Below, piece by piece: positions 26,004 through 35,042 of a DNA stretch of 40,250 nt (its first letter is position 1; the number at the start of each line of letters is the position of its first letter). The notes beneath the pieces were generated by a model. That model searched no databases and was not told the DNA's origin. It saw nothing but the letters and a program-made list of their open reading frames with translations. The stretch lies in the NCBI RefSeq assembly GCF_029865925.1, contig NZ_JARXAI010000050.1, positions 1 to 40,250 of the forward strand, in the 5' to 3' direction. The position numbers were made by a program, and so were the translations under genes. The stretch is from Sphingorhabdus sp. (lineage in GTDB: Bacteria > Pseudomonadota > Alphaproteobacteria > Sphingomonadales > Sphingomonadaceae).

Positions 26004-26078
26004 TGGTGCTGCTGGGGAGGATTGAACTCCCGACCTCGTCATTACCAATGACGCGCTCTACCACTGAGCTACAGCAGC
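26004..26078 (-). tRNA. tRNA-Thr (anticodon GGT)
   Basis: The complementary strand folds as a full tRNA: the 7-bp acceptor stem GCTGCTG/CAGCAGC, a D-arm with AGCTCAGTGGTAGAGC, the anticodon stem CGTCA/TGACG with loop TTGGTAA, and a T-arm GGGAG/CTCCC enclosing TTCAATC. The anticodon is GGT, reading ACC threonine codons. The 3' CCA is encoded (26004-26006). Confidence 0.96.
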
Positions 26079-32173: not shown

Positions 32174-32701
32174 ATGCAAACCCGTCACCTGACCCTTTTC
32201 GCCATGTTGGCGCTCGCCGCGTGCGTTTCGCCACCCCCTCCACCTGCGCCAAAGACAGTATCCGCGCCTCCGGGCGCTGCTGCAATGGCCCCAGCGCCTG
32301 CATTGACGGGTGATTGGAATGACTGGCCTTTCACGCCCGGGGATTGGACCTATAGCCGCGACAGCCGGGGTTCAGTTGGACAGTTCGGAGTTCTGGGTCG
32401 AACGGCAATGCTTAGCTTGCGTTGCGATATGCAGACGCGGCGCGTCACTTTGTCGCGAGAGGCATCGGCGCCGGCACAGCATATGGTCATACGGACGTCG
32501 TCAATGACAAAGCAGTTGCCCGCCCAGCTAACTGGCGGAATGCACGCTTATGTTGCGGCAGAAATTATGACGAACGATCCGATTTTGGATGCCATGGCTT
32601 TTAGCCGCGGGCGGATATTGGTCGAAGCAGATGGGCAGCAGCCCGTTATCCTGCCATCATGGGCCGAAATTGCGCGCATTATTGAAGATTGTCGAGGATG
32701 A
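32174..32701 (+). CDS. Hypothetical proline-rich lipoprotein (175 residues)
   Basis: A small predicted lipoprotein: signal peptide ending in the lipobox LAAC, with Cys17 as the lipid-attachment residue, followed by a flexible segment of prolines and alanines (VSPPPPPAPK to about residue 44). The remaining part (GDWNDWPFTPGDWTYSRDSR onward) looks like a single globular domain of unknown type, probably on the periplasmic side of a membrane. It lacks recognisable enzyme motifs. It is divergent from tlyA. A weak 6-bp hairpin without a T run follows the stop (32708-32724). No function can be assigned. Confidence 0.8.
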   Translation: MQTRHLTLFAMLALAACVSPPPPPAPKTVSAPPGAAAMAPAPALTGDWNDWPFTPGDWTYSRDSRGSVGQFGVLGRTAMLSLRCDMQTRRVTLSREASAPAQHMVIRTSSMTKQLPAQLTGGMHAYVAAEIMTNDPILDAMAFSRGRILVEADGQQPVILPSWAEIARIIEDCRG

Positions 32702-32754: not shown

Positions 32755-32760
32755 TATAAT
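32755..32760 (+). promoter_or_regulatory. Perfect TATAAT -10 box upstream of the structured RNA unit
   Basis: TATAAT follows a run of As about 58 bases before the first start codon of the small unit. No good -35 is present at 16-18 bases. If used, transcription would begin near 32767. Confidence 0.35.
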
Positions 32761-32818
32761 TCAAGACTTGTTTAACACTGCGGATTGATTCAATTTCAGT
32801 CCTGCGGAGGGCAGATAT

Positions 32819-32920
32819 ATGTTTGAAGCACGCAAATTCCATTCAACGAAAGGAGGTGATCCGATGTCTCATGGTTCAGTTAAGAGGTCGGATAATTCCG
32901 TTCGGGAGATCGGCCGCTGA
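32819..32920 (+). CDS. Tiny ORF with two in-frame starts (33 or 18 residues)
   Basis: The longer form starts at 32819 (MFEARKFHST...), with GGAGGG at 32806-32811 upstream. The shorter form starts at 32864 (MSHGSVKRSDNSVREIGR) directly after the 14-base extended Shine-Dalgarno sequence, with 7 bases from GGAGG to the ATG, which is near optimal. The two share one frame and stop at 32918-32920. The peptide is basic and has no recognised domain. The stop codon lies in the first downstream hairpin. It may be a real micropeptide or a leader peptide whose translation alters the RNA fold. No homolog is known to me. Confidence 0.4.
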   Translation: MFEARKFHSTKGGDPMSHGSVKRSDNSVREIGR

Positions 32921-32993
32921 GCACATCAGCGATGCCGCTCACGGCATGAAAGCAACTTCCGGCAGCGGGCGTCCGACCGCTGACCCATGTTTA

Positions 32994-33025
32994 AGGGCCG
33001 CTGATTCAATACAGCGGCCCTTTTC
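32994..33025 (+). terminator. Strong Rho-independent terminator
   Basis: Perfect 10-bp stem AGGGCCGCTG/CAGCGGCCCT (32994-33003 with 33012-33021), 8-base loop, then TTTT. It lies about 145 bases before sppA and ends the short structured unit. Confidence 0.88.
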
Positions 33026-33167
33026 TAGATTTATTGTTCCGATATCATGCGGTGCATACGGCGAACCGATCGTCATTCTTGCCATGCAAAGCTTTTTGTC
33101 GAACAATGGTGGCATATTGTGATGGAATGCCTACATCAGTCACTCGGGCTTTTAGGATATTGATAAC

Positions 33168-35042
33168 ATGCAGTTCGTACGTGTTAGCTGGAAAATTTTG
33201 GTTGGTTTAAAAGACCTCCTTGTTCTTTTGTTCATGCTTTTGTTTTTCGCCGCTATTTTTGCGTTGCTGAATGCAAGTCCAAACCCCGCGATGGTTCGCG
33301 ACGGCGCCTTGCTGCTCAAGCTGGAAGGCGTCGTGTCCGAGCAACCTGCGGAAATTGACACGCTCACGACCCTGACATCATCGGCTGCGTCCGTTGGTGA
33401 AATGCGTCAGCGCGACATTGTCCGTGCGTTGAAACTTGCTGAGACAGATGACCGCGTAAAGGCTGTCGTCGTGGACATGGACCGCTTTATGGGGGGCGGG
33501 CAAGCCAGCCTTGCCGCCATTGGTAGCAGCCTCGATGGGGTAAAAAAGGCGGGCAAGCCAGTGTACGCGTTTGCCACGGCCTATACCGATGACAGTTATC
33601 AGCTTGCGGCGCATGCGACGCAGATATGGATGGACCCACTTGGTGGCGCCATGTTGACTGGACCAGGCGGTTCGCAACCCTATTTTAAAGGCTTGCTTGA
33701 CCGATTGGGCGTGAAGGCCAACATCTATCGTGTTGGGACGTATAAGAGCGCGGTTGAACCCTTTATGCGCTCCGATCAGTCAGAGGCATCAAAGGCCGCG
33801 ATCAAGGGTGTCTATGACGAAATCTGGGGCCAGTGGAAAGCCGCTGTCGCCAAGGCTCGTCCGCAGGCGCGATTGGAACAGATGCTGACGGATCCGGCTG
33901 CGGCGGTTGAAGGTGCGCAGGGTAATCTTGCCCAATTGGCCTTGTCCAGTAAGCTGGTGGACACATTGGGCGACCGTGTCGCCTTTGGCAAATTTGTGGC
34001 GAGTAAGGTCGGCGCTGACGACAAGAAGACGACTGGCGGCTTTGCAAATACGCCGATGGATGCGTTTCTTGCGCATTATGGTCCGGCGTCTGCGGGTAAG
34101 CAGATTGGCGTAATTACAATCGCTGGAACCATAGTGGATGGCGAAGGCGGCCCAGGTTCTGCGGCTGGCGATACAGTTAGCGGATTGATTTACGATGCCT
34201 TGGATAACAAGGATTTGAAGGCACTCGTCGTGCGTGTGGATTCGCCTGGCGGATCTGTTATGGCATCGGAGAAAATACGGCTCGCCATTGAAGCTGCGAA
34301 AGCGAAGAAAATTCCCGTAATAGTCTCAATGGCCAATTTGGCCGCAAGCGGCGGATATTGGATTTCCCTTCCCGCAGATGTAATTTTCGCTGACCCATCG
34401 ACCATCACCGGTTCAATTGGTATATTTGCTGTCATCCCGAGTGCCGAGGTAGGCCTCGCCAAAATTGGTGTGAATGCCGATGGCGTCAAAACGACCCCAT
34501 TATCCGGTGAGCCTGACGTTCTGAATGGCTTTAGCCCAGAGTTTGACCGCGTAGCGCAAAGCGCAATTGAAAATGGCTATCGCCAGTTTCTGAACCGCGT
34601 GGCCGCTGCACGAAAGAAAACACCGGCGCAGGTTGATGCCATTGCACAAGGCCGCGTTTGGGCCGGCGGCACGGCGCGTCGGCTTGGCCTTGTAGACCGC
34701 ACCGGCGGTATGAACGATGCGTTCGCGGAAGCTGCAAAGCGGGCAGGTTTGAAATCTGACGGCTGGCATGCGGAATATATCGAGCCACCCGTCAGTTTCA
34801 CCGAAACCTTGCTTCAGGGATTGATGCCAAAGCGGGCACAGGCGACTGCGCCGATGGACATTTTTGCCCATGCCGCATGGCAGCAAAACCTGTTTGCACA
34901 ACGCGTAGCGCGTGATCTGAACATGCTTACGGGGGTAAAGGGCGTGCAAGCTGCCTGCTTGGAATGCGGGGACTTCGCTTCGCCAGCGCCGTCGCCAACG
35001 GACAAAAGCTGGCTGGCGATTTTGATTAAGGCGATTAGCTAA
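33168..35042 (+). CDS. sppA: Signal peptide peptidase SppA, 67-kDa type
   Basis: Inner-membrane serine protease that degrades signal peptides after protein export. The 624-residue protein is the long, duplicated form: a membrane anchor near the N-terminus (LVLLFMLLFFAAIFALL), an N-terminal half with the general-base lysine in GTYKSAVEPF (Lys193), and a C-terminal half with the nucleophile in AASGGYW (Ser394), as in E. coli SppA. Both peptidase-S49 repeats are complete. AGGA at 33154-33157 lies 10 bases before the ATG. Upstream is the terminator of the short structured unit. It converges on the ppa lipoprotein gene with only 20 bases between stops. Confidence 0.95.
   Translation: MQFVRVSWKILVGLKDLLVLLFMLLFFAAIFALLNASPNPAMVRDGALLLKLEGVVSEQPAEIDTLTTLTSSAASVGEMRQRDIVRALKLAETDDRVKAVVVDMDRFMGGGQASLAAIGSSLDGVKKAGKPVYAFATAYTDDSYQLAAHATQIWMDPLGGAMLTGPGGSQPYFKGLLDRLGVKANIYRVGTYKSAVEPFMRSDQSEASKAAIKGVYDEIWGQWKAAVAKARPQARLEQMLTDPAAAVEGAQGNLAQLALSSKLVDTLGDRVAFGKFVASKVGADDKKTTGGFANTPMDAFLAHYGPASAGKQIGVITIAGTIVDGEGGPGSAAGDTVSGLIYDALDNKDLKALVVRVDSPGGSVMASEKIRLAIEAAKAKKIPVIVSMANLAASGGYWISLPADVIFADPSTITGSIGIFAVIPSAEVGLAKIGVNADGVKTTPLSGEPDVLNGFSPEFDRVAQSAIENGYRQFLNRVAAARKKTPAQVDAIAQGRVWAGGTARRLGLVDRTGGMNDAFAEAAKRAGLKSDGWHAEYIEPPVSFTETLLQGLMPKRAQATAPMDIFAHAAWQQNLFAQRVARDLNMLTGVKGVQAACLECGDFASPAPSPTDKSWLAILIKAIS

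Follow-up and report, generated by a model that had tools for sequence, protein, structure and literature searches.

A divergent homologue of the CC2171 small RNA in sphingomonads that seems to keep a short open reading frame behind an extended Shine-Dalgarno sequence

Background

The stretch of DNA analysed here (the window) comprises 40,250 nucleotides of a contig from Sphingorhabdus sp. (NZ_JARXAI010000050.1). At one site in the window, the sequence AAAGGAGGTGATCC is complementary to the 3' tail of 16S rRNA over 14 bases and stands immediately before a short open reading frame (ORF) in a structured segment. An earlier note, made from the sequence alone, read this segment either as an undescribed RNA that binds the 30S subunit or as a translated leader controlling sppA.

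The locus raises two questions. Why should one RNA carry a Shine-Dalgarno (SD) sequence matching the whole 16S tail, when 75.4% of genes in Caulobacter, as given in PMC4117421, have no SD sequence? And why should the length of an ORF be kept while its sequence drifts? In the present study, we compared the RNA unit with known RNA families and with related genomes, and then examined its SD sequence, ORF, predicted fold, and genomic context. On sequence comparison, a conserved short ORF seems to be a new feature of the CC2171 sRNA family; no description of it was found in the literature searched.

Results

Relationship to the CC2171 family

The RNA of the window aligned with the covariance model RF01867 (CC2171, a Caulobacter sRNA) over the full model (positions 1-159 of 159), with 43.3 bits and an E-value of 7.4e-8 in 501 nt. 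The match was obtained with an E-value threshold and did not reach the Rfam gathering score of 75 bits. The scores of five further sphingomonad loci were 39.1-44.5 bits, and a full-length match well above chance was obtained in six of six sources. As its score is below the cut-off, the RNA, judged from this alignment, is a divergent homologue or branch of RF01867 and not a member by Rfam's own rule. The description as an undescribed RNA therefore has to be narrowed: the unit aligns from end to end with a described family, and what holds is that it lies outside the curated cut-off.

Both RNAs share the block CGAAAGGAGGUGAUCC-N-(A/G)UG-UCUCAU, a closing helix behind UCUCAU, and a terminal, terminator-like hairpin. 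The closing helix CAUUGUC/GACAAUG of RF01867 corresponds to CAUGGU(U)C/GACCAUG in the sphingomonad branch, so that this helix (P1) has GC where RF01867 has UA, and the start codon is AUG in the window, in contrast to GUG in the RF01867 consensus. Table 1 lists the features of the unit.

Table 1. Positions of the observed and putative features of the RNA unit in the window
Feature	Positions	Strand	Basis
Putative promoter, CTTGTT (32767-32772), 17 nt, TCAATT (32790-32795)	32767-32795	+	inferred
Longer in-frame ORF, ATG 32819, 33 codons, own SD GGAGGG (32806-32811)	32805-32920	+	conservation in the sub-clade
Extended SD, AAAGGAGGTGATCC	32849-32862	+	complement of the 16S 3' tail
Conserved short ORF, 18 codons and TGA (MSHGSVKRSDNSVREIGR; stop at 32918-32920)	32864-32920	+	49/49 motif-chosen and 30/30 similarity-fetched loci
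Predicted closed structured domain, inner hairpins between the helix arms	32870-32989	+	fold z -4.61, paired columns
Predicted P1a helix	32870-32879 with 32979-32989	+	pairing in alignment A2
Predicted P1b helix, GGTCGG with CCGACC	32886-32891 with 32973-32978	+	pairing over 56 loci
Terminator-like hairpin, AAGGGCCGCTG-loop-CAGCGGCCCTT, then Ts	32993-33024	+	predicted separate hairpin, 32993-33022

The RF01867 model alone matched 61 of 289 class genomes, 9 of them over the cut-off, and among 14 named control genomes it matched only Caulobacter vibrioides. Both forms occur in one sphingomonad genome (G091): a CC2171-like locus with 68.9 bits (L106, G091:C1:805104-805255) and a locus of the sphingomonad type (L249, G091:C1:2921886-2922076). 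This indicates that the two types can coexist. The only match in the window at the Rfam gathering level was an ordinary tRNA gene (26007-26078, - strand).

A search of the literature for CC2171 or RF01867 by name, which may miss work under other names, gave no paper on function; the relevant items naming the family were a structure-update table and a prediction in Mesorhizobium. From the gene numbering, we presume that CC2171 may correspond to CCNA_R0051. The latter is described as a 209-nt RNA with its own promoter between CCNA_02253 and CCNA_02254, raised 4.4-fold, though not specifically, with mitomycin (PMC6237742), and is listed as a G1-labelled ncRNA in PMC5988900. If the two are the same, this would speak for an independent transcript and agree with the size expected of it.

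Distribution

Conservation in related sphingomonads had been set beforehand as a test, and the RNA passed it. A blastn search with 32755-33030 gave matches in 126 of 149 family genomes. R1, a covariance model built from 23 sphingomonad and 44 other rows and thus trained partly on the family tested, matched 181 of 199 family genomes (E <= 0.001) and was absent at this threshold in 18. In the class, it matched 82 of 289 genomes (E <= 0.01), with 207 below detection; in the phylum sample, 27 of 150 genomes were matched, 24 of them from the class. The three matches outside the class (E 0.002-0.01) were taken as chance or rRNA and discarded. Many of the weakest class matches were 24-nt stretches at about 18.5 bits, which are probably antisense 16S. 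As far as such searches can tell, the unit is near-universal in the family and patchy across the class at the thresholds used.

The class form of the block was found in at least 120 stretches, including, among the matches listed, Methylobacterium, Bosea, Microvirga, Brevundimonas, and Acetobacteraceae. It also occurred with a 21-codon ORF in a metagenome-assembled genome titled Ramlibacter, a betaproteobacterium by name (L185), by transfer, misbinning, or mislabelling. In the case of three near-complete 2.1 Mb genomes from one genus of the family (G024, G109, and G170), the R1 match was absent, an apparent loss or divergence of the RNA in this genus.

The extended SD sequence

The 14-base sequence is a perfect complement of the 16S 3' end, as the earlier note had claimed, and is separated from the ATG at 32864 by 1 nt. 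It has a single exact copy in its own genome, at this site. Variants with one mismatch were found in 0 places and those with two mismatches in 14; the reversed control gave 3 places.

Pairing of the 16S tail with the 22 nt that precede 32864 was predicted at -29.7 kcal/mol, compared with -4.7 to -11.6 kcal/mol for eight other starts tested in the window, including 32819. The 0.1% quantile over 16,092 22-mers of the window was -17.1 kcal/mol. The site reaches far beyond a normal ribosome site, in agreement with the earlier reading.

Among the best matches listed in similarity or covariance-model searches (window included), 59 of 70 distinct loci had the exact 14-mer: 27/30 by similarity, 22/29 by the Rfam model, and 10/11 by R1. 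GGAGG was kept in all SD variants among the matches listed. One locus from the window's genus (L301) has a version of AAAGGAGGTGATCC with two mismatches and still keeps an ORF of 18 codons, which counts against a strict need for the 14-mer.

The short ORF and its upstream region

The 18-residue ORF that the extended SD had been proposed to start is present, and its length varies little. All 49 distinct sphingomonad loci, chosen by motif (they were required to contain GGTGATCCGATGTC, a motif present in 55 of 61 loci, and the 3' block), have 18-20 codons. Among 115 distinct class loci, also motif-chosen and counted after three too-short loci were left out and duplicates removed, the ORF has 20-28 codons in 113 (14 and 33 in the other two) and 21-26 in 110, in contrast to the shorter sphingomonad ORF.

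Because these sets had been chosen by motif, we repeated the count on loci fetched by similarity or by model. In all 30 distinct sphingomonad loci (best similarity matches listed, window included), the ORF has 18-19 codons; in 10 of 11 further R1 loci among the matches listed it has 18-30, with 32 in the remaining one. Rfam types RF01867 as "Gene; sRNA"; an ORF of 18-26 codons stands behind the SD in all 29 distinct loci from the best 30 places matched by the Rfam model.

The 5th-95th percentile range in frame 0 is 18-19.6 codons in the 49 sphingomonad loci and 21-25 in 114 class loci; frames +1 and +2 of the same loci are spread out and have no such constancy. The stop codons interchange freely, TAA, TGA, and TAG being used 32, 16, and 1 times in the sphingomonads (n=49) and 30, 64, and 20 times in the class loci (n=114), which a fixed RNA motif would not explain. 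Third-position G+C is 0.70 in the sphingomonads and 0.77 in the class, compared with 0.58-0.65 at the first and second positions, a pattern as in translated frames of GC-rich genomes.

Conservation of the peptide was examined through the mean entropy at codon positions 1/2/3, counted from codon 6 on. The values were 0.94/1.03/0.70 in 37 sphingomonad ORFs of 18 codons and 0.59/0.63/0.67 in nine of 19 codons; in the class, they were 1.36/1.40/1.23 (40 ORFs of 25 codons), 1.40/1.34/1.46 (25 ORFs of 24 codons), and 1.31/1.36/1.19 (20 ORFs of 23 codons). Entropy at the third position is lowest in three of the five length groups and highest by a small margin in two. The test is weak, since entropy at the third position is lowered by its high G+C and every codon position is under constraint from RNA folding. 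As the first and second positions are about as variable as the third, the peptide appears to be poorly kept. Distant lineages (20 regions, two of which had no match to the pattern used) have the same layout with unlike peptides, and 16 of 18 rows have ORFs of 14-28 codons, the others 35 and 57. Thus, translation, more than the peptide, looks selected in this ORF.

The 33-residue ORF in the same frame, with its own ribosome site, was found as the earlier note had described it, and among the loci compared it was confined to the window's sub-clade. In six of six loci from the window's genus and one neighbouring genus (L001, L300, L301, L302, L303, and L304), an SD-like stretch precedes an ATG that lies upstream of the short ORF and in frame with it; this count leaves out L305, L306, and L308, which, like L301, had no match to the pattern used, L301 being read by sequence. 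In two loci from other genera (L307 and L309), no in-frame upstream ATG was found, only TTG or GTG. Further upstream, a CTTG ... TGAnTCA arrangement was noticed by eye in the sub-clade and in some other sphingomonad loci. Our guess is that transcription may start near 32802. A generic promoter/terminator scan found neither element by its rules at the RNA unit.

Predicted fold

The presumed transcript (32802-33027, about 226 nt) folded at -90.3 kcal/mol with a z-score of -4.61, and 0 of 200 dinucleotide shuffles were as low. In the centroid fold, the SD and the start codon are unpaired and P1, a long-range helix that begins 6 nt downstream from the A of the start codon, is closed. The four hairpins in a row proposed earlier are only partly borne out: the prediction is one long-range closed domain with inner hairpins, followed by the terminator-like hairpin. 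GC-rich hairpins with T-runs after the 3' block were also seen by eye in related loci. Repeats of the GGCCGCTGA kind, also pointed out earlier, are present, and GACCGCTGA (32975-32983) is part of the 3' arm of P1.

In alignment A2, the rows of which were picked by an identity filter and the 3' motif (L213 was left out), 98.5% of 469 P1a cells were paired, and both sides had changed in 29 cells; these counts are partly circular, as the 3' ends were motif-chosen. At one position, 44 rows have UA and 23 have GC; at another, UA occurs in 54 rows, UG in 7, CG in 5, and a different combination in 1. The UA-to-GC change is a single split (23 sphingomonad rows) and is therefore support, not proof. In P1b, GGTCGG faces mostly CCGGCC; of its 336 cells from 56 loci, 333 hold standard pairs. 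Changes in P1b are mostly one-sided, between G-U and Watson-Crick pairs, with a double change in one locus from the same genus (GGTTGG with CCAATC). The mean probability of P1 in single-sequence ensembles was 0.41 for 40 sphingomonad and 0.56 for 60 class sequences. By these predictions, a long-range helix just behind the start codon is conserved, with a few compensatory changes.

Genomic context

The sppA gene starts at 33168, downstream of the RNA unit. Such a neighbour would suit a translated leader or attenuator of sppA, and the gene also lies downstream in L033-L035. However, sppA was found within 1.5 kb in only 5 of 55 sphingomonad locus entries, two of which are the window itself. The downstream ORFs, called mechanically, are on the + strand in 46 and the - strand in 52 of the class loci (29 and 20 in the sphingomonads), and over 166 loci there is no dominant downstream family, the largest cluster having 10 members (class IV aminotransferases, from two members scanned). 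A leader should have a fixed position upstream of the gene that it controls, which was not observed; we rejected the proposal and regard it as scarcely credible. The variable downstream families and mixed strands fit an independent unit, and the RNA looks like a free-standing RNA gene.

On the upstream side, the ORF at 32174-32701 encodes a lipoprotein-like protein that had no Pfam hit, and a relative of it precedes the RNA in 53 of the 55 entries, in flanks of at most 1.5 kb. In Bosea, an RNase R-like gene follows closely downstream of the RNA (L124:3314-5629; a cluster of 7 loci, of which L124 was scanned), and in Microvirga it adjoins a divergent gene for release factor RF3 (L141:1714-3372; a cluster of 8, of which L141 was scanned). 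Both proteins act on ribosomes or RNA, and their context is lineage-specific.

Discussion

Our working model, to which we give about even chances, is a free-standing structured RNA gene from a divergent CC2171 branch, in which the SD would capture the 30S subunit and translation of the 18-codon ORF would open the fold. The whole 16S tail would pair with the unpaired SD. Once a ribosome had initiated and translated for a short distance, the closed P1 domain would be opened, and it could re-form when translation terminates some 18-26 codons on. The RNA might thus switch between a closed and a ribosome-opened form according to the ease of 30S initiation, and one or the other form could regulate other RNAs, change the stability of the RNA itself, or only hold ribosomes. 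The sequence itself shows an SD that matches the whole tail, an ORF of constant length, P1 downstream of the start codon, and an independent context; capture of the subunit and the opening and re-closing are steps that we infer from them. Binding to the 30S subunit, as the earlier note had suggested, is plausible.

Some observations count against the model. Schrader 2014, as given in PMC4117421, states that most Caulobacter ncRNAs arise from untranslated intergenic regions, although two earlier-predicted ncRNAs were found to be translated. The modest P1 probabilities and the patchiness in the class also weigh against it, and the long SD might do no more than ensure that a structured message is strongly translated. 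A tentative extension, which we consider doubtful, is that the RNA is a riboregulator that would read the supply of initiation-competent 30S subunits: the whole 16S tail would pair with the SD, translation of an ORF of fixed length, indifferent to its peptide, would open the fold, and coding would be kept for the movement of the ribosome and not for the peptide made. If the RNA does report on free 30S subunits, ribosome supply would be tied to gene regulation via base pairing. In addition, the sphingomonad branch, missed at the present cut-off, would be recovered by adding a second model to Rfam.

Other explanations of the same features have to be weighed against this model. A decoy might titrate free 30S subunits with its whole-tail complement, the ORF only clearing the ribosome afterwards. 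The frequency of the exact 14-mer (59/70) and the constancy of GGAGG among the best matches listed, the drifting peptide, and the strength of the predicted duplex (-29.7 kcal/mol) agree with this, but a decoy needs an abundance comparable with that of free 30S subunits, and for a pure decoy the kept start codon and ORF length are superfluous. We regard it as unlikely. An ordinary micro-mRNA, with a peptide of 18-26 residues as its product and a strong SD for high expression, would account for the conserved start, stop, and frame, the high third-position G+C, the mean net charge of +2.5 in the sphingomonad peptides, and the peptide VSHC...TW(I/T)xAS, shared in part by many of the 115 class loci. 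However, positions 1 and 2 vary about as much as position 3 (the third being lowest in three of five groups), other lineages have unlike peptides, and the invariant N-terminus belongs to the SD/P1 block, in which even synonymous positions do not change. This explanation is rather improbable in our opinion, and the peptide as the main product is disfavoured.

Two further explanations place the partner of the SD in RNAs other than the ribosome or within the same RNA. The RNA might be a sponge that uses its perfect SD to titrate sRNAs whose loops carry an anti-SD. SisA-D of Caulobacter (alpha-r8 family) are such sRNAs: as described in PMC12559287, they have in common a 10-mer bearing an anti-SD signature, and CrfA acts as their sponge. 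The conserved match, however, extends by way of GATCC to the portion of the 16S tail that lies past the core anti-SD, and a sponge leaves the conserved ORF unexplained, so that we consider it very unlikely. Alternatively, a mimic of the 16S tail inside the ORF (e.g., CTGGATCGTCGCCTCC) might mask the SD until the 30S subunit competes. The class set beat shuffled targets (mean z -1.64, n=127), with the site often near +37 to +43, whereas the sphingomonads gave a mean z of -0.47 (n=51) and the window 0.1 in the same comparison. Against shuffled SDs, the mean z was only -0.33 in a less redundant set (n=54) and -0.06 in the sphingomonads (n=20). As the mimic is weak in this comparison and absent in the window, and the SD is unpaired in the window's centroid fold, we dropped it as a candidate and keep it only as a weak, highly improbable rival. 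We also rejected a fragment of an antisense 16S copy, since the similarity exceeds the SD and the whole unit aligns with RF01867. True antisense 16S hits did occur among the pattern matches (L005 and L020).

The proposed ribosome-opened RNA can be compared with three known systems. The dual-function sRNA rnTrpL of Sinorhizobium is likewise a short RNA with a tiny ORF, which is translated there (peTrpL); according to PMC10117765, it is a leaderless attenuator RNA with a functional peptide, whereas in the RNA of the window the SD is maximal, the downstream operon is not fixed, and the peptide is little conserved. In Staphylococcus aureus, extended SD sites also pair with the 16S tail beyond the core, but there, as presented in PMC13009471, they belong to many ordinary mRNAs, and here to one conserved RNA. 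CrfA and SisA-D also combine SD/anti-SD-like complementarity with regulation in alphaproteobacteria (PMC12559287). CrfA is an RNA other than CC2171, and the terms 2171 and R0051 are absent from the main text of that paper.

Some of the loci from distant lineages (L282, L286, L287, and L289-L292) have CCTTC/CCTC-like stretches resembling an anti-SD at the end of the ORF, e.g., GCAACCTCCTTC in L290. In the case of L063 and L293, the searched 3' motifs of P1 were absent, and a near-complete or complete extended SD precedes an ORF of 57-58 codons with a signal-peptide-like start; these are possibly different small genes that share the same SD.
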